IMG/VR virus record: IMGVR_UViG_3300042465_002072
Coordinates: 1 to 36,811 of that record
Length of the DNA stretch: 36,811 nucleotides
Source of the DNA: a virus
Strand: one strand, 5' to 3'
Below, piece after piece: positions 22,668 to 30,397 of this stretch (the first letter of the stretch is position 1; each line of letters begins with the position of its first letter). Under the pieces are notes generated by a model. The model made no database searches, was not told where the DNA came from, and was given only the letters and a program-made list of their open reading frames with translations. Both the position numbers and the translations under genes were made by a program.

Positions 22668-23026
22668 CAGTCCACCTCATTGCAGAATAGGCGTGTGCAT
22701 GTGTCGTAAGACCTGGGAGAACTCGTCCTGATGATCTCGTAGGTGTTCCCAGAGTGGAGCACTCGGTCGCGCTCGGTGACGCTAGTTCCCTGCGGGACCG
22801 TGATAACCCATCCGGTCGCTGCGACGAACTCACCACCCACAATGTCTTCCAAGCCTGCGCCCTGCGGAGAAACCCTGCAGGCGACTGTGCCGACATTGGC
22901 CCAGGTGTCAATCACTCCACCCATTCCGTCTGAGGACTGAGTAGAGCGGCTGATGACAGCCGTACCGGGGAGCGTATCGGCAATAGCCGAGCGCATGCAG
23001 GCAAGATCGGCAGTCGTGAGCGTCAC
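22667..23026 (-). CDS. Head completion (stopper-like) protein
   Basis: This 119-aa protein is placed between the connector and the gp10-like gene, with the beta-rich pattern of head-closure proteins: TAVISRSTQSSDGMGGVIDT, WANVGTVACRVSPQG, then VITVPQGTSVTERDRVLHSG and NTYEIIRTSSPRSYDT. It seals the portal after packaging and provides the tail attachment site. It overlaps both neighbours. Confidence 0.8.
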   Translation of the reverse strand: MTLTTADLACMRSAIADTLPGTAVISRSTQSSDGMGGVIDTWANVGTVACRVSPQGAGLEDIVGGEFVAATGWVITVPQGTSVTERDRVLHSGNTYEIIRTSSPRSYDTCTRLFCNEVD

Positions 23027-23595
23027 GATTCTGTCCTGAGATTCCTTCGCTGCACGCGGGCACGCTTACGCAGCTCCCGAGCCTGATCGCGCATGTTCTT
23101 GACCTTCTGCGACAAGCTGAACGACTGCCCGTCCGTAGAGAAGTCGAAGCAGCGAGACTCATGCGCGGCCCATGAATCCAGAATCTCGGCAGCAGCGCCG
23201 TAGATGTCGTATGACCTGGCGCTCAGATAGAGAGCGGTTCCCCCAGTGTCAGCGGAGAAGTCGAAGATGCCCAGCTGGTAGTCAGCCGTATAGGTCGCCG
23301 TTCCTCGGTCGTCGCCTACTGAGTCTTCGATGAAGAAGACCGCTGTACCACTCGCAGCAGTCTCCAGGAAGCCGTATGCGGAGCGAAGACGGGTATAGAC
23401 GACTGATCCCCCTCCAATGTACGAAGGCTCGCGCAAGAGCTTGTGGCGAACGAGATCCTGCCGGTGGCGATCCAGAACCTGCTCGATCTGGTTGTCGTCC
23501 CAGTAGTTCGCCGTGCCGACGTTGTATTCGGCGGTGCCGGCGTAGGTCAGTCCTCGCACCCTGGCGATGTTGTCGGCCATACCGCTTCTGCTCAT
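23023..23595 (-). CDS. Head-tail connector/adaptor protein
   Basis: This 190-aa protein follows the sugar-modification cluster in the position of the gp6-like adaptor. It has a helical N-terminal portion (YWDDNQIEQVLDRHRQDLVR), a beta-rich middle (TYTADYQLGIFDFSADTGG) and a C-terminal helix (AAAEILDSWAAHESRCFDFS) with a basic tail. The arrangement resembles connectors that insert between portal and stopper. It overlaps the epimerase gene (4 nt). Confidence 0.75.
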   Translation of the reverse strand: MSRSGMADNIARVRGLTYAGTAEYNVGTANYWDDNQIEQVLDRHRQDLVRHKLLREPSYIGGGSVVYTRLRSAYGFLETAASGTAVFFIEDSVGDDRGTATYTADYQLGIFDFSADTGGTALYLSARSYDIYGAAAEILDSWAAHESRCFDFSTDGQSFSLSQKVKNMRDQARELRKRARVQRRNLRTES

Positions 23596-24554
23596 GCTGT
23601 CAGTGCTTCCTCCGGGGACAGAATCTCAGCCGCAGTCCAAGCCACGATCTGTCGCATGGTGTTCTCAGGCGACCATCCTAGTGATCTTGCAAGCGCCGCA
23701 TCTGGCAGCTTCGTCCCAGCACTCGCTTCCTCGTAGCGATGACCGAAGATCCTCTTGCCTGATGTGTGAACGATCTCAGACTTTGAGTTAGTAACCTCTC
23801 GGACAACCCTGGCGAGATCGTTGATCGTTGTGCGGTTCTCTTCGTTGCCGACGTTGTACGCCTGCCCGGTCCAATCCTCCACAGTTGGCAGGTGATCCGT
23901 GATGAATCGGCACACATCCCATACCCCGGTGAACGCCCGCTCCTGCTCGCCACCCTCGAATACCGTGATCGGGTCGTTTACGAGCGCCTGATAGACCATG
24001 CGAGGCACAACGAATCCTTTGCTCTGCGCCTCGCGGGGACCAGCCATATTCCACGGCCTGATCTGTACGGCTCGAAGTCCTCTGGCGATAGAAGCTCCGA
24101 CGATTTGCTCTGCGGCGATCTTGCCCGCCTGATATTCGCCTCTGGCAGAGAACTTCTGCTGGATCGTGCATGGATCGCTCTCTGAAGCCTGGCCGGTGAT
24201 GCCGTAGATCTCTGAAGTAGAGATATTGACGAGAGGAACGTCCGCAACCACGCAGGCATCCACGACTTTCTGCGTTGCCCAGACCACATCGCCGGCAATC
24301 GTGCCCTGAGCCGGAAGAATCGCCGCAGCGCCTACCGGGGAGGCTGCATGCACCACAAGATCGGCAGACGCGACGTACTTCGGGAGGATCTGCTTCGCAT
24401 CAGCGATCATCATGTGCGAGATCGTCGGATGAGTGACGCTCACGACATTCGCGGTCATGTTGTCAAGTCCGATGACTTCCCAACCGAGCTTCGCGTAGCG
24501 ATCCGCCAGGTGAGAACCCATGAAGCCGAGCGCCCCGGTAATCATCACCCTCAT
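23592..24554 (-). CDS. NAD-dependent sugar-nucleotide epimerase/dehydratase
   Basis: This 320-aa extended short-chain dehydrogenase has the Rossmann motif ITGALGFMG (residues 5-13), a Ser/Thr active-site segment STSEIYG (112-118) and the catalytic Y141-x-x-x-K145 in YQAGK. Family members epimerise or dehydrate nucleotide sugars. It overlaps GT2 by 4 nt and so probably supplies or modifies the sugar used by the two glycosyltransferases. The substrate cannot be read from the sequence. It sits inside the structural operon, between decoration and connector genes. Confidence 0.88.
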   Translation of the reverse strand: MRVMITGALGFMGSHLADRYAKLGWEVIGLDNMTANVVSVTHPTISHMMIADAKQILPKYVASADLVVHAASPVGAAAILPAQGTIAGDVVWATQKVVDACVVADVPLVNISTSEIYGITGQASESDPCTIQQKFSARGEYQAGKIAAEQIVGASIARGLRAVQIRPWNMAGPREAQSKGFVVPRMVYQALVNDPITVFEGGEQERAFTGVWDVCRFITDHLPTVEDWTGQAYNVGNEENRTTINDLARVVREVTNSKSEIVHTSGKRIFGHRYEEASAGTKLPDAALARSLGWSPENTMRQIVAWTAAEILSPEEALTA

Positions 24555-25168
24555 ACGGCCACTCCGATCCAGTAGTCGGGATTCGCCAGAGATTGCTCGA
24601 ACTGAAGCCGGTCAGTCATGGATCGCCTCACCATGTCATCCCTGCCCGCGACTCCCTCTAGATGCGTGATCCTGTACGGCTCACGATAGACCACGTTCAT
24701 ACCGAGCGAACGCGCTCTGGCCGCCAGGTAGTCATCGGCGAAGTAGTGGATATCGAGGCACGGACCCATTTCCTGCCACACATACTGCGAGAAGAATGGG
24801 AACTGACTGCTGACTACAGGTGCCCAGTCGGCGCAGTCAGTCAGTAGCCAGCCGCCGCCCATTGAGCCAGTCGCCAGAACCGATCCATCCAGCTTCTGAA
24901 GCCTTGGAGCCGGGTAGAGCGACCGATCGGCTGCCTCCATCGCCGCTTCTGCCCAGCCAGGATGCACGATCACATCATCTGCAGCGAGCATCAGGTATTC
25001 GCCCTCTGCTGCCTCTGCGCCGTCGTTCCATGCGGTGCCTATTGCCCTGCGATCCTTCACGATGATGATCTGCAGCTCGTCTGCCGGCACGGTGGCGCGG
25101 AAAGAGGCGATCGTCTTCTGACATAGATCCTCGCGCCCCTTGATCGTCGGGACTACGACAGAGATCAC
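24551..25168 (-). CDS. Glycosyltransferase family 2-like (GT-A fold)
   Basis: This 205-aa enzyme has the GT-A pattern: SVVVPTIKGREDLCQKTIAS at the N-terminus, a nucleotide-binding Lys/Arg segment (IIIVKDRRAIGTAWNDG) and the metal-binding LAADDVIVHPGW (Asp64-Asp65), then a C-terminal acceptor half. It overlaps GT4 and the epimerase by 4 nt each. Possible acceptors are 5-hydroxymethylcytosine in phage DNA, a sugar already added by the GT4 enzyme, or a capsid protein. Confidence 0.85.
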   Translation of the reverse strand: MISVVVPTIKGREDLCQKTIASFRATVPADELQIIIVKDRRAIGTAWNDGAEAAEGEYLMLAADDVIVHPGWAEAAMEAADRSLYPAPRLQKLDGSVLATGSMGGGWLLTDCADWAPVVSSQFPFFSQYVWQEMGPCLDIHYFADDYLAARARSLGMNVVYREPYRITHLEGVAGRDDMVRRSMTDRLQFEQSLANPDYWIGVAV

Positions 25169-26340
25169 TGCACAACCTCAACCGGGGGAGGTTCTGCGTC
25201 AGATGATTCCAGCCGGTCAGAGAGTTCGTCCAGAAGAGGCTTCCAATAGTGCTGAGTGACCTCGTCTGCGTCATATCGCATCGCGAACGCTCGGGCATCT
25301 TCCGCCAGGCGCTTATCCCCGCGTGCCTCGTATGCGGCCTCATAAGCCTCTAGGACGCCCTCAACGGTCGCTAGGTGCTGGTAGTCCAGCATTGGCGTAA
25401 GGATGCGTTCTGAGGCCGTTACAGTCCATCCTGCGCCTACTAGCTCGGGCATCGCAGTCCAACCGCCCACGATGACCGGCGTTCCGCACGCCTGAGCCTC
25501 AATGATGGGTACTCCGAATCCCTCGCCCATTGTCGGACTGCTGAGTACGTCCATGGAGCTATAGAGAGCGGCCATTACTTCGTCGTCATAGCCGAGAAGG
25601 TTGCGGTACTGATCCGCCAGGCGAACAGAATCCTCTGGCACCCCGGTAGCCTGCAGCACGCCGGGTATGTCCAGACCCTCCATTTCTGTACCGATATGCG
25701 TGTGGAGGTAGAGGATCGCATCGCTATGACGCTCTCGGAGCCTGGCGAACGCCTCAAACTGAGTCGGTAGCGCCTTGCGAGAGGGGATGCCCTTATTCGC
25801 GGCCACGATGCCGACGATGAAGGCATCTTCTGGCAGTCCGAGCTTGACGCGAGCCTCGCGCTCATCTATCGGCGCATAGACGTTCGTATCCACTCCATGC
25901 GGGACGTAGCGTGGATCTAGCCCCGCATCACGCGCTGCCTGATCTGCGTGCTTGGCATAGACGACCGGCTGCCACGAATGCTTGACTGCCTCTCGGACCA
26001 TATGCGGCACGCCTTCGTGATCCACTGGGAACCACGGCACCCACCTGGCGCCAGTAGATGTGATCTTGTCGTGCTTCATCACCCATCCGTCAATGAGGGT
26101 GATGACAATGTCTGCCCTGTGATCCTTCACATGCGGGCCGATCACATCCATTCCATATGGATGAAATGCCTTGGGATAGACCTTCATCCCGTTCCAGCCG
26201 ATGGTTGCGCCCTCCAGCCCATAGAAGGCGCTCATAGCTACGTCATGGCCCAGGTCACGAATGCGCGGCGCGAAGATGCGCGTCTGCACTCCGTAACCAG
26301 TTGCAGTCCATGGTGCGTTGGAATGCCAGAGAATCCTCAA
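25165..26340 (-). CDS. Glycosyltransferase family 4-like (GT-B fold)
   Basis: This 391-aa GT-B enzyme begins MRILWHSNAPWTATGYGVQT (a glycine-rich acceptor-side loop) and includes VPHGVDTNVYAP. The donor-site signature is GEGFGVPIIEAQACGTPVIV, with the two Glu of the E-x7-E motif. It would transfer a sugar from a nucleotide donor with retention of configuration. The start is TTG at 26340, preceded by AAGGGGG; the TTG and the structured leader upstream suggest limited or controlled translation. It is the first gene of the sugar cluster. Confidence 0.9.
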   Translation of the reverse strand: MRILWHSNAPWTATGYGVQTRIFAPRIRDLGHDVAMSAFYGLEGATIGWNGMKVYPKAFHPYGMDVIGPHVKDHRADIVITLIDGWVMKHDKITSTGARWVPWFPVDHEGVPHMVREAVKHSWQPVVYAKHADQAARDAGLDPRYVPHGVDTNVYAPIDEREARVKLGLPEDAFIVGIVAANKGIPSRKALPTQFEAFARLRERHSDAILYLHTHIGTEMEGLDIPGVLQATGVPEDSVRLADQYRNLLGYDDEVMAALYSSMDVLSSPTMGEGFGVPIIEAQACGTPVIVGGWTAMPELVGAGWTVTASERILTPMLDYQHLATVEGVLEAYEAAYEARGDKRLAEDARAFAMRYDADEVTQHYWKPLLDELSDRLESSDAEPPPVEVVQ

Positions 26341-26357
26341 CCTCGCCCCCTTCTCAT

Positions 26358-26448
26358 GCCCCGGTAGAAGCGACTAGGGAAAGACACCGGGGCGGGATGC
26401 CCTTTCAGCAGACGGTGCGACCGCTGCCTATCCCATGTCGCCTAGTCG
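26358..26448 (-). promoter_or_regulatory. Candidate structured RNA leader with a pseudoknot upstream of the glycosyltransferase genes
   Basis: The gap between the decoration gene and GT4 can fold on almost its whole length. Helix B pairs 26358-26365 (GCCCCGGT) with 26386-26393 (ACCGGGGC). Bases 26371-26378 (CGACTAGG), in the loop of B, are perfectly complementary to 26441-26448 (CCTAGTCG), giving an interleaved pairing. Between them GGGAT (26394-26398) pairs with ATCCC (26430-26434) and encloses an 8-bp hairpin with one bulge (26408-26427, GCAG-A-CGGT / ACCG-CTGC). No U-run follows, so it is not an ordinary terminator. The minus-strand transcript carries it 17 nt before the GT4 TTG start. A riboswitch-like or other cis-regulatory role is inferred. 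Confidence 0.55.
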
Positions 26449-26841
26449 TTACGCCTTGCCGCCCACGTAGTGGACGATCACCTTCCCGAATGTGGCCGTG
26501 CCGTTGTTCTGGCTGGTCTGACGAACGGCGAGCCACTCATGCCTGTTCAGCACGTCGTGCTCGTCGCTAATCGTCATCTGCTTCGGAACATTGGTTACCC
26601 AGTGGTCAGAAGTGCCACCGACCGAGAGTCCTGCCGTCCCGAGGACTGCCGGCGTGCCCGCATTGGAGTACCGGATCAGCTGTACGGTGAAAGACGTATT
26701 GCTGCTGGTGTTCGCATGGTTCACAACCCACGCCTCAGTGATAGTCACTGCTCCACCGATATCCGATGCTCTGAAGATCAGCACGTCGGATGTGTGCCCT
26801 CCGAGAGGGAGAACAAGAGTATTCGCGTCTAGCTGCGCCAT
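26449..26841 (-). CDS. Head decoration-like protein, paralogue 1
   Basis: This 130-aa beta-rich protein begins MAQLDANTLVLPLGGHTSDV and shares motifs with the next gene: AWVVNHANTSSNTSFTVQLI, GGTSDHWVTNVPKQMTI and the terminal IVHYVGGKA. Its place between the capsid and sugar genes suggests a capsid decoration or head-fibre protein. The ATG at 26841 has no clear ribosome binding site; a strong hairpin lies just upstream. It could be an acceptor for glycosylation, but no direct evidence exists. Confidence 0.75.
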   Translation of the reverse strand: MAQLDANTLVLPLGGHTSDVLIFRASDIGGAVTITEAWVVNHANTSSNTSFTVQLIRYSNAGTPAVLGTAGLSVGGTSDHWVTNVPKQMTISDEHDVLNRHEWLAVRQTSQNNGTATFGKVIVHYVGGKA

Positions 26842-26903: not shown

Positions 26904-27290
26904 CTACGCCTTTCCCTGCACGTAGTGAATCGTGACCATTCCGCGAGTCTGCGAGCCGCCGTCCACCGTCGCGTAAGCGAGGCTCAGGCACTCGCCCTCG
27001 TCCAGCGTGATGTAATTGCTGTCGAGGGTGTAGCTCTTCGGAACCAGGTCGGTCCAGTGGTCGGAGGTGCCGCCCAGAGTGCCGACCGTGCCTGCGATGA
27101 CCGTCCCTGCGCTAGTGCGCTTGTGCAGCGCCAGAGTGTAGGTAGCCGTACCAGAGGTAGTAGCGTGGTTCACCGCGTAGGCGTCAAGAAGCGTGATCTT
27201 GCCGCCGGTACCGCTGTGCTTGTAGATGATCACGTCGTCAGCCGCTGCCGGCATCGGAACCGTGATGCTGTTCACGTCGAACTGTGCCAT
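26904..27290 (-). CDS. Head decoration-like protein, paralogue 2
   Basis: This 128-aa protein begins MAQFDVNSITVPMPAAADDV and matches paralogue 1 in length and motifs: YAVNHATTSGTATYTLALHK, GGTSDHWTDLVPKSYTL and VTIHYVQGKA. It lies 13 nt downstream of the major capsid gene with AAAGGA 7-8 nt before its ATG. The strong start signal fits an abundant virion protein, probably a capsid decoration protein. Confidence 0.78.
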   Translation of the reverse strand: MAQFDVNSITVPMPAAADDVIIYKHSGTGGKITLLDAYAVNHATTSGTATYTLALHKRTSAGTVIAGTVGTLGGTSDHWTDLVPKSYTLDSNYITLDEGECLSLAYATVDGGSQTRGMVTIHYVQGKA

Positions 27291-28829: not shown

Positions 28830-28996
28830 GGTAGCACTTGCCCCTTACTGGATTACATATGTGCCGGCAGGGATAGAAGCACATCGGCTATGCGGAATGC
28901 ACTCCCCGGTACTGTTGTGGAAAGTCCACTTGCCAACATGAGCAAGATGTATCAGCATTCCGTTCAGTTGGAAACCACATGACGAGAGGAATCAAC
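28830..28996. promoter_or_regulatory. Divergent intergenic region with several inverted repeats
   Basis: This 167-bp region separates the minus-strand scaffold gene from the plus-strand island, so promoters for both should lie here. Visible elements: CGGAATGC (28893-28900) with GCATTCCG (28955-28962), a perfect inverted repeat; between them the hairpin GTGGA-AAG-TCCAC (28917-28929); a shorter pair ATGTGC / GCACAT near 28858-28883; and the direct repeat CACTTGCC at 28835 and 28927. A minus-strand TATGTA near 28855 is only a weak -10 candidate. No convincing -35/-10 pair was found by eye. Confidence 0.5.
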
Positions 28997-29434
28997 ATGG
29001 CACGTCAGCTTCTGAAGGATATTCACCCGATCTGCGACGAGATCCTTAACGGTGAGTACGACGATATCCTCCACGCTATCGAGCAGTCCATCAGCGCACG
29101 TCGCAAGCGTTCGCAGGCCGAGTCTGGCATCCGACCTGGCGCGATTGTGCGAGTGGACTACCCGAGCGATCCTCAGATTGACGGTGTGTACGCATACGTC
29201 AAGAAGGTCAACAAGAAGTCCGTGGGCATCGTGGTTCTGCTTGACAGCACCGAGCGCACCGACGATGAGGGCCTTCGCCCCCTCCCGATGGAGTACCGCG
29301 TGTCACCGAACCTCCTGCGGGTTGTGGGCACGTTTGACGAGGATATGACTCGGGAGAACCTGACCGAGCGCAACCGCTGGACTCGCGAGTGCATGCTGTA
29401 TTGGGAGCAGGCCGCGTCGGACGAGAGGTGGTAG
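28997..29434 (+). CDS. Hypothetical 145-aa protein, plus-strand island gene 1
   Basis: The start ATG at 28997 has AGAGGA 6 nt upstream and gives MARQLLKDIHPICDEILNGE; an ATG at 28979 is less well placed. The middle has a small beta-barrel-like stretch (RPGAIVRVDYPSDPQIDGVY, then AYVKKVNKKSVGIVVLLDS) resembling SH3/KOW-type folds; the C-terminus is helical. No family is recognised. It is the first of five co-directional genes opposite to the rest of the genome, which may be expressed separately, for example early in infection. Confidence 0.72.
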   Translation: MARQLLKDIHPICDEILNGEYDDILHAIEQSISARRKRSQAESGIRPGAIVRVDYPSDPQIDGVYAYVKKVNKKSVGIVVLLDSTERTDDEGLRPLPMEYRVSPNLLRVVGTFDEDMTRENLTERNRWTRECMLYWEQAASDERW

Positions 29435-29438
29435 TCCG

Positions 29439-29786
29439 ATGAACGAGCCGACGATCTCAGGATTCATCTTCGACGCTCTGGAGCGCCGCAGCGACTACAA
29501 CGGATGGGGGTACATCCGTGGTCGGTATCAGATTCTGCGGCAGCGCAGCATGGATGCCGTGGCTCGCGCAGATGCCGATCTTCTGCACTTCGCAGCGATG
29601 AACGGATGGAGCACCGAGGATCTGTTCGTCTTCTGCAACAGCAAGGACGGCAGGCACTACGCAGACGCGCATGAGGACGGCAGGACGCGGCAGGCGATCG
29701 CTTGCCTGCAGGACTTCAATGACAATTGGATGCTCGTCGCTCGTAAGGATCGCGGCATTCCCTACTCGCATGAGGTGGCCGCATGA
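29439..29786 (+). CDS. Hypothetical 115-aa protein, plus-strand island gene 2
   Basis: This protein begins MNEPTISGFIFDALERRSDY and is rich in aromatic and acidic residues (ADLLHFAAMNGWSTEDLFVF and CLQDFNDNWMLVARKDRG). It follows gene 1 by 4 nt and overlaps gene 3 by 4 nt. GAGAGG lies a little upstream of the ATG. No motif of a known enzyme or DNA-binding fold is visible. Confidence 0.7.
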   Translation: MNEPTISGFIFDALERRSDYNGWGYIRGRYQILRQRSMDAVARADADLLHFAAMNGWSTEDLFVFCNSKDGRHYADAHEDGRTRQAIACLQDFNDNWMLVARKDRGIPYSHEVAA

Positions 29787-30058
29787 TCGCCACGTTCTCC
29801 GACAACAGCACTGTGACGATCCCTGACGACTTCTCATTCGACCATGTGACGATCATCGGTCGTGACTCAGAGGGTGACCTGGTAGTAGAAAGCGACGGCA
29901 TGCTCTACCCACTCACACACTGCTGCCTCGCAAGCGGCAAGGGTGCTGAGGTCAGCACAGGGGTAGTGTGCAGGTCGTGCTACGAGGAAGTGGATTCGAT
30001 CTACGGAGCGGTGTACGAGGACGCGGACGTTCGCTCGCGCCTTATCAGCATCGCTTAG
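29783..30058 (+). CDS. Hypothetical 91-aa protein with possible zinc site, plus-strand island gene 3
   Basis: Beta-rich N-terminus (MIATFSDNSTVTIPDDFSFD, GRDSEGDLVVESDGMLYPL) followed by a Cys/His segment THCCLASGKGAEVSTGVVCR with SCYEEVD. The cysteines could hold a single zinc ion. The ATG overlaps gene 2 (ATGA). It is followed by a long hairpin at 30064-30099. No family is recognised. Confidence 0.7.
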   Translation: MIATFSDNSTVTIPDDFSFDHVTIIGRDSEGDLVVESDGMLYPLTHCCLASGKGAEVSTGVVCRSCYEEVDSIYGAVYEDADVRSRLISIA

Positions 30059-30063
30059 TCCCC

Positions 30064-30099
30064 TACGCCCTCGGATGCTCTAGCGGCTCCGAGGGCGTA
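30064..30099 (+). terminator. Perfect 11-bp hairpin after island gene 3, terminator-like without a U-run
   Basis: TACGCCCTCGG (30064-30074) is exactly complementary to CCGAGGGCGTA (30089-30099) with a 14-nt loop. It begins 5 nt after the stop of gene 3 and ends 22 nt before gene 4. The following bases (TCAGTTCTGG) are not a U-run, so it may be a factor-dependent terminator, an attenuator between the two halves of the island or an mRNA-stabilising element. Confidence 0.5.
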
Positions 30100-30121
30100 T
30101 CAGTTCTGGAATGGAGCATTC

Positions 30122-30397
30122 ATGAGTGACGAGGGCATGACAGAGGACGAACTTCGCAAGATGGAGAGCGAAGACCGCATAGACCGCATGACGCCTGTGA
30201 CGTATGTGGTGCTGATCCCGTATCAGACGGAAGACAGTCACATATGCGTCGGTCACTTCGGATCACGCATAGACGCTGCCAGTTTCATCGGAGAGTTCAC
30301 GAGCCGGGTGGATATCAAGCCGGAACACCTCATGGTTGGGCCGGTCTATTCGCACGCAGACATAATGGAACTCATTGACGAGAAGGGAGGTGAGTGA
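30122..30397 (+). CDS. Hypothetical 91-aa protein, plus-strand island gene 4
   Basis: This is a small acidic protein (MSDEGMTEDELRKMESEDRI) with an alpha/beta pattern (TPVTYVVLIPYQTEDSHICV, GSRIDAASFIGEFTSRVDI, EHLMVGPVYSHADIMELIDE). TGGAATGGAG lies just upstream of the ATG. It ends in GGGAGG, which serves as binding site for the next gene. No function is recognised; small acidic phage proteins of this kind often inhibit host factors, but nothing here shows that. Confidence 0.7.
   Translation: MSDEGMTEDELRKMESEDRIDRMTPVTYVVLIPYQTEDSHICVGHFGSRIDAASFIGEFTSRVDIKPEHLMVGPVYSHADIMELIDEKGGE

Follow-up and report, generated by a model that had tools for sequence, protein, structure and literature searches.

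A divergent int-alpA-like leader RNA with a putative anti-Shine-Dalgarno loop between capsid-region and glycosyltransferase genes of a phage

By comparing the leader of a phage glycosyltransferase gene with those of about 60 relatives in all, our work here points to an intercistronic RNA resembling int-alpA (Rfam RF02996) that probably controls translation of the gene behind it, through an anti-Shine-Dalgarno loop that would have two alternative partners, a neighbouring decoy or the ribosome-binding site (RBS). The leader lies in the window, by which we mean the whole 36,811-nt stretch of viral DNA that was analysed (IMG/VR record IMGVR_UViG_3300042465_002072), and we read it as a divergent relative of int-alpA whose score falls below the family model. 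The local genes run on the minus strand, and the leader is therefore read as the reverse complement of 26341-26448, a 108-nt gap that leads, in the minus-strand transcript, from a 130-aa capsid-region gene to the glycosyltransferase. Its parts and the two flanking genes are given below in the order of transcription, with the basis for each; P1 to P3 are helices, and A′ and A the two strands of the predicted pseudoknot.

26449-26841, minus: upstream gene, 130 aa, after the major capsid gene; without family match
26441-26448, minus: alternative 5′ arm CGACUAGG (helix B); survives only in the closest relatives
26431-26441, minus: P1 5′ arm GGCGACAUGGGA; pairs, as in the family, with 26370-26380, though with two internal mismatches in the window
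26429-26430, minus: UA of the invariant UAG after P1; U, A and G invariant in 33 aligned rows
26407-26428, minus: P2 hairpin; predicted fold, lower pairs kept in homologues
26402-26406, minus: GAAAG core strand after P2, GA(A/C)A in the family; comparison with the family rows
26401-26404, minus: P3 5′ arm, AAGG, which makes a weak helix with UCUU in the window; sequence and family P3
26386-26393, minus: A′, GCCCCGGU, in the P3 loop; putative pseudoknot and anti-RBS strand, from its pairing with A
26381-26384, minus: P3 3′ arm; sequence and family P3
26370-26380, minus: P1 3′ arm UCCCUAGUCGC; includes the helix B strand 26371-26378
26358-26365, minus: A, ACCGGGGC, partner of A′; A′-A pairing over 53 lineages
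26346-26354, minus: putative Shine-Dalgarno sequence AGAAGGGGG; 5 nt ahead of the TTG start
26344-26349, minus: GGGGCG, second A′ complement, overlapping the RBS; pairs with CGCCCC at 26389-26394, 6 bp
25165-26340, minus: glycosyltransferase, first downstream gene; Pfam Glyco_trans_1_4, TTG start

The glycosyltransferase opens a minus-strand block (23023-26340) of GT4, GT2-like, nucleotide-sugar epimerase and unmatched genes inside the head gene cluster; Microcystis phage Mae-JY09 has a comparable sugar-gene block in its head cluster, where the annotation names only a glycosyltransferase. On the other side of the leader, adjacent minus-strand genes of 130 and 128 aa (26449-26841 and 26904-27290) follow the major capsid gene; neither gave a Pfam or PHROG match, and their homologues in two related loci, L005 and L007, resemble tandem paralogues (MAQLDAN..., MAQFDVN...). 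Farther away, at 28979-30397 on the plus strand, a series of small ORFs lies between the scaffold and portal regions, antiparallel to the structural genes.

The earlier note had described two perfect 8-bp pairings that interleave, and both are exact: helix A joins 26386-26393 to 26358-26365, and helix B joins 26371-26378 to 26441-26448. Dinucleotide shuffling of the leader, done 20,000 times, produced such an interleaved pair in 0.075% of cases, and one of the 680 segments of 108 nt in this genome contains one, making it unusual at one site, with about 0.5 expected by chance per whole-genome scan. The fold energy of the leader is ordinary (z = +0.61) and uninformative. On the window sequence by itself the finding is suggestive, not compelling, and the case depends on the relatives. 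Chance pairings within a GC-rich gap would agree with this energy and with the number expected per scan at this genome size, but for the family they are contradicted by homologues in synteny, by covariation and by the permutation tests, and we regard chance as highly improbable. The 17-nt spacing to the TTG start is correct, as is the start itself (the homologous glycosyltransferases share this first residue, their start codon being ATG or TTG), and no U-run follows the leader, which rules out reading it as an intrinsic terminator. At a homologous glycosyltransferase in Pontimonas phage phiPsal1, a terminator-like hairpin and U-run stand in the leader's place.

Homologous loci were retrieved via the glycosyltransferase and the upstream gene, together with Mae-JY09. 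Many of the relatives' leaders share one layout, consisting of P1, UAG, P2, GA(A/C)A, P3 carrying A′ in the loop, and the P1 3′ arm, followed by a short linker, A, the RBS and the start; P1 is 8-10 bp long and almost entirely different in sequence from phage to phage. Among the related loci that were scanned, ten gave an int-alpA score over the cut-off at this same leader, and leaders over the cut-off at the same position include those of L025, L073, L090 and Mae-JY09. The RNA had been called unrecognised, which is right of the window, where Rfam searches, run both with the gathering cut-off and with E values as high as 10, returned nothing relevant and RF02996 was not reached, but wrong of the family, which is known. 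Int-alpA, reportedly from Weinberg 2017, has in common with these leaders a three-way junction, a UAG / GAAAA core and a pseudoknot strand 3′ of P1, and its satellite members also carry the RBS copy and the hairpin P4 discussed below; its Rfam model reaches no farther than A, and Rfam classes the family as an sRNA gene. In the window the RNA instead separates a capsid-region gene from a glycosyltransferase, a context other than that of integrase and alpA.

An unpadded MAFFT alignment was structurally poor, and N-padded, structure-fitted rows were used instead. Across 33 such rows, with satellite int-alpA RNAs included and the window's clade excluded, 97.5% of cells are paired and 15 of 16 pairs are changed on both sides; these rows were fitted by hand, which biases them towards the structure, and Rfam's independent model gives the same fold. 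Sliding the rows by 1-3 columns lowers pairing to 40-46%. A covariance model, R1, which was built from rows other than the window and its closest relatives, recovers most leaders and then L020 (19.6 bits) and L017 (15.7 bits). Searched over the whole window, R1 gave no match; with filters off it scored 10.2 bits at 26356-26439, which is not significant alone. We therefore base the window's membership on synteny and on the chain that runs from the window through L017 to L018/L020. That these leaders form a real structured RNA family is very likely.

The window has the three-way junction of P1, P2 and P3, albeit with two mismatches in P1 and a weak P3; AUAGG and UGAAAG stand at the positions expected for the int-alpA core, and the P3 loop is perfectly complementary to A over 8 bp. 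The arms of P1 (26431-26441 with 26370-26380) match the layout of all relatives, and this helix is kept in L017, L018 and L020, with one mismatch against two in the window and a compensatory A-U to G-C change. Measured against these homologues, half of the exact fold first proposed was right. Helix A, the pseudoknot, is conserved in dozens of phages and is kept along the window's chain, the L018 version being longer by a C together with a G. Helix B retained its 3′ arm (26371-26378) but lost its 5′ arm, since three of the eight pairs made by 26441-26448 are broken in L018 and L020 and the conserved, covarying partner is 26431-26441. A proposed third helix (26394-26398 with 26430-26434) has to be given up, with two of five pairs broken in L018/L020 and survival elsewhere only as G-U, while the bulged hairpin placed at 26408-26427 corresponds to P2, whose lower part is mostly kept. 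The minus-strand segments 26441-26448 (CGACUAGG) and 26432-26440 (CGACAUGGG) are near-identical candidate 5′ arms for the same P1 3′ arm; such twin arms in the window's closest relatives are candidates for slippage or strand exchange. Taken together, the window's copy appears divergent and somewhat eroded, with an imperfect P1, a weak P3, a 6-bp RBS pairing and no P4.

Over 53 lineages, the pairing of A′ with its own A stands at 16.8, compared with 12.2 for permuted partners (0 of 5,000 permutations), in a test whose loops and regions were set by eye and in which a few A assignments are wrong (e.g. L110, L062). Most relatives carry a second A′ complement at the RBS of the gene that follows, frequently within a small hairpin, P4. 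For this second copy the same test gives 14.6 with the own partner and 11.9 (sd 0.33) with permuted ones, a mean showing that GC-rich A′ and Shine-Dalgarno sequences pair fairly well by chance; again 0 of 5,000 permutations matched the observed value. The Shine-Dalgarno consensus alone is insufficient to explain this excess, because the permuted partners carry it too. In L018, A′ (GUUGCCCCCG) is complementary to CGGGGGCAAC at the RBS over 10 bp, and the corresponding pairs at the next gene's RBS are AAGCCCCC with GGGGGCUU in L022 and UCUCCCUG with CAGGGAGG in Mae-JY09; the satellite RNA L115 sets UCCUUCA against UGAAGGG in both places, at A and at the RBS. Both copies match A′ in L176 and L194 too, although the duplicated sequence there departs from the Shine-Dalgarno consensus.

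The second copy tends to sit in the P4 loop (10.9, against 7.9 when shuffled); P4 is absent from the window and likewise from some other members (L147, L173). At the R1 match L194:9241-9308, the second copy, GAAGUA, occupies a hairpin loop about 28 nt before the next start and, not being a Shine-Dalgarno sequence, may have a role beyond covering the RBS. Three loci with homologous glycosyltransferases (L071, L074 and L088) lack the int-alpA core and have instead a hairpin with a CCUCCU loop and then one with an AGGAGG loop before the start, a simpler leader in which loop-loop kissing is possible.

Comparison among the relatives shows the predicted family fold, the pseudoknot and the double complementarity of A′, and the complementarity to the RBS suggests that the RNA controls translation rather than sensing a ligand. 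In the mechanism we propose, P1 would enclose P2 and P3, and A′ in the P3 loop would pair with A just 3′ of P1. With A′ on A, the pseudoknot would form and the RBS would be free; with A′ on the RBS, translation of the glycosyltransferase would be blocked. By its choice between A and the RBS, A′ would thereby set or switch translation of the next gene and, in the window, of the gene block after the capsid genes. The switching, its trigger and action in cis or in trans are what we infer. A fixed intercistronic attenuator would do with less, lowering translation of the next gene without a trigger and perhaps protecting the 3′ end of a strongly expressed upstream message. The RNA does stand behind capsid-region genes here and tail-region genes elsewhere, often 0-16 nt past the stop codon, and the downstream genes differ among members; an attenuator would, however, leave unexplained both the strongly conserved core and the presence of two matching A′ complements rather than one, and we consider it unlikely.

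The family occurs in varied contexts. The same RNA lies ahead of satellite genes, after the integrase, and int-alpA in satellites is upstream of Icd-like genes. R1 matches also place it ahead of genes that follow tail-tube-like proteins (L144, L146, L164, L173), a capsid-like gene (L172) and primase-like genes (L180, L182), all names being read from sequence, and ahead of small ORFs that in L030, L043, L069 and L081 separate the RNA from the glycosyltransferase. Two of 301 Chloroflexota genomes match, a rarity in chromosomes that makes this look like a mobile-element RNA. By blastn, 216 of 5,426 E. coli genomes match the Rfam int-alpA consensus, an upper estimate since E values up to 10 were admitted; a search of plasmids with one leader as query gave no match, and phage P4 no significant R1 match.

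With downstream genes as varied as these, the nucleotide-sugar riboswitch suggested in the earlier note is unlikely. Conserved unpaired core nucleotides, a pseudoknot near the RBS and, in the window, sugar genes downstream would suit a metabolite riboswitch, but the genes behind this RNA, in phages and satellites, are unrelated and do not keep to a single pathway, and L027 retains the architecture without the conserved core; we give any such riboswitch very little credence. The general idea of a pseudoknotted cis-acting leader appears to have been a good one, and the pseudoknotted RNA itself is backed by homology, covariation and permutation. The manA and wcaG RNAs (RF01745, RF01761), riboswitch candidates, are likewise structured phage RNAs near sugar-related genes (PMC2864571); a scan of the window and 20 related loci with Rfam matched neither of them.

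The proposed choice between decoy and RBS has a parallel in the C4 antisense RNA of phages P1 and P7 (RF01695), which also has a three-way junction, a third-stem loop complementary to the next gene's RBS and a further target just after its P1 stem. In the C4 of phage P1, the icd RBS (b2) is the target of b′, in the loop of the third stem, and a2, three nucleotides past the RNA, is that of a′. A loop complementary to the next RBS is found here as well, over 6 bp in the window; peculiar to C4 are a very long P1 stem and, within the junction, another antisense strand, a′. RNase P processes C4, whose b′ loop occludes ribosome-binding sites in part; both this processing and the action of C4 in trans are established (PMC5320573). 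None of the leaders matched the C4 model, which the phage P1 control does match, and membership in C4 is ruled out on this ground; our claim is therefore that the leader works like C4, not that it is C4.

This comparison also raises the possibility, which we find rather doubtful, of an antisense RNA of the C4 kind acting in trans, in which the junction would be cut out between P1 and A and the freed A′ would repress other transcript copies at their RBS, in autoregulation or immunity. The order of junction, target beside the P1 3′ end and target at the next RBS resembles C4, for which RNase P processing and partial occlusion of ribosome-binding sites by b′ set a precedent (PMC5320573), and both the sRNA typing of int-alpA and the satellite copies upstream of Icd-like genes would fit. 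Against this, the C4 model does not match, a single loop serves both targets here rather than separate a′ and b′ strands, and A is so close that the cis pseudoknot should win.

The reading we favour, an intercistronic RNA whose loop chooses decoy or RBS, can be carried further, at somewhat less than even confidence, to a class of RNA switches spread throughout phages, one corner of which would be int-alpA. Its members would set an adjacent decoy against an RBS held in a hairpin loop, forming a plug-in device of phages and satellites, possibly with C4-like release in trans. Int-alpA is an orphan RNA; within the open literature searched, a single paper names it, and does so only within a table of predicted sRNAs. 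Our comparison offers it a concrete mechanism in which A′ would pair with decoy or RBS, carries it beyond satellites into the virion gene blocks of many phages and ties it to the layout of C4. If true, this would mean that a translational control device of phages has been overlooked between the genes of structural operons.
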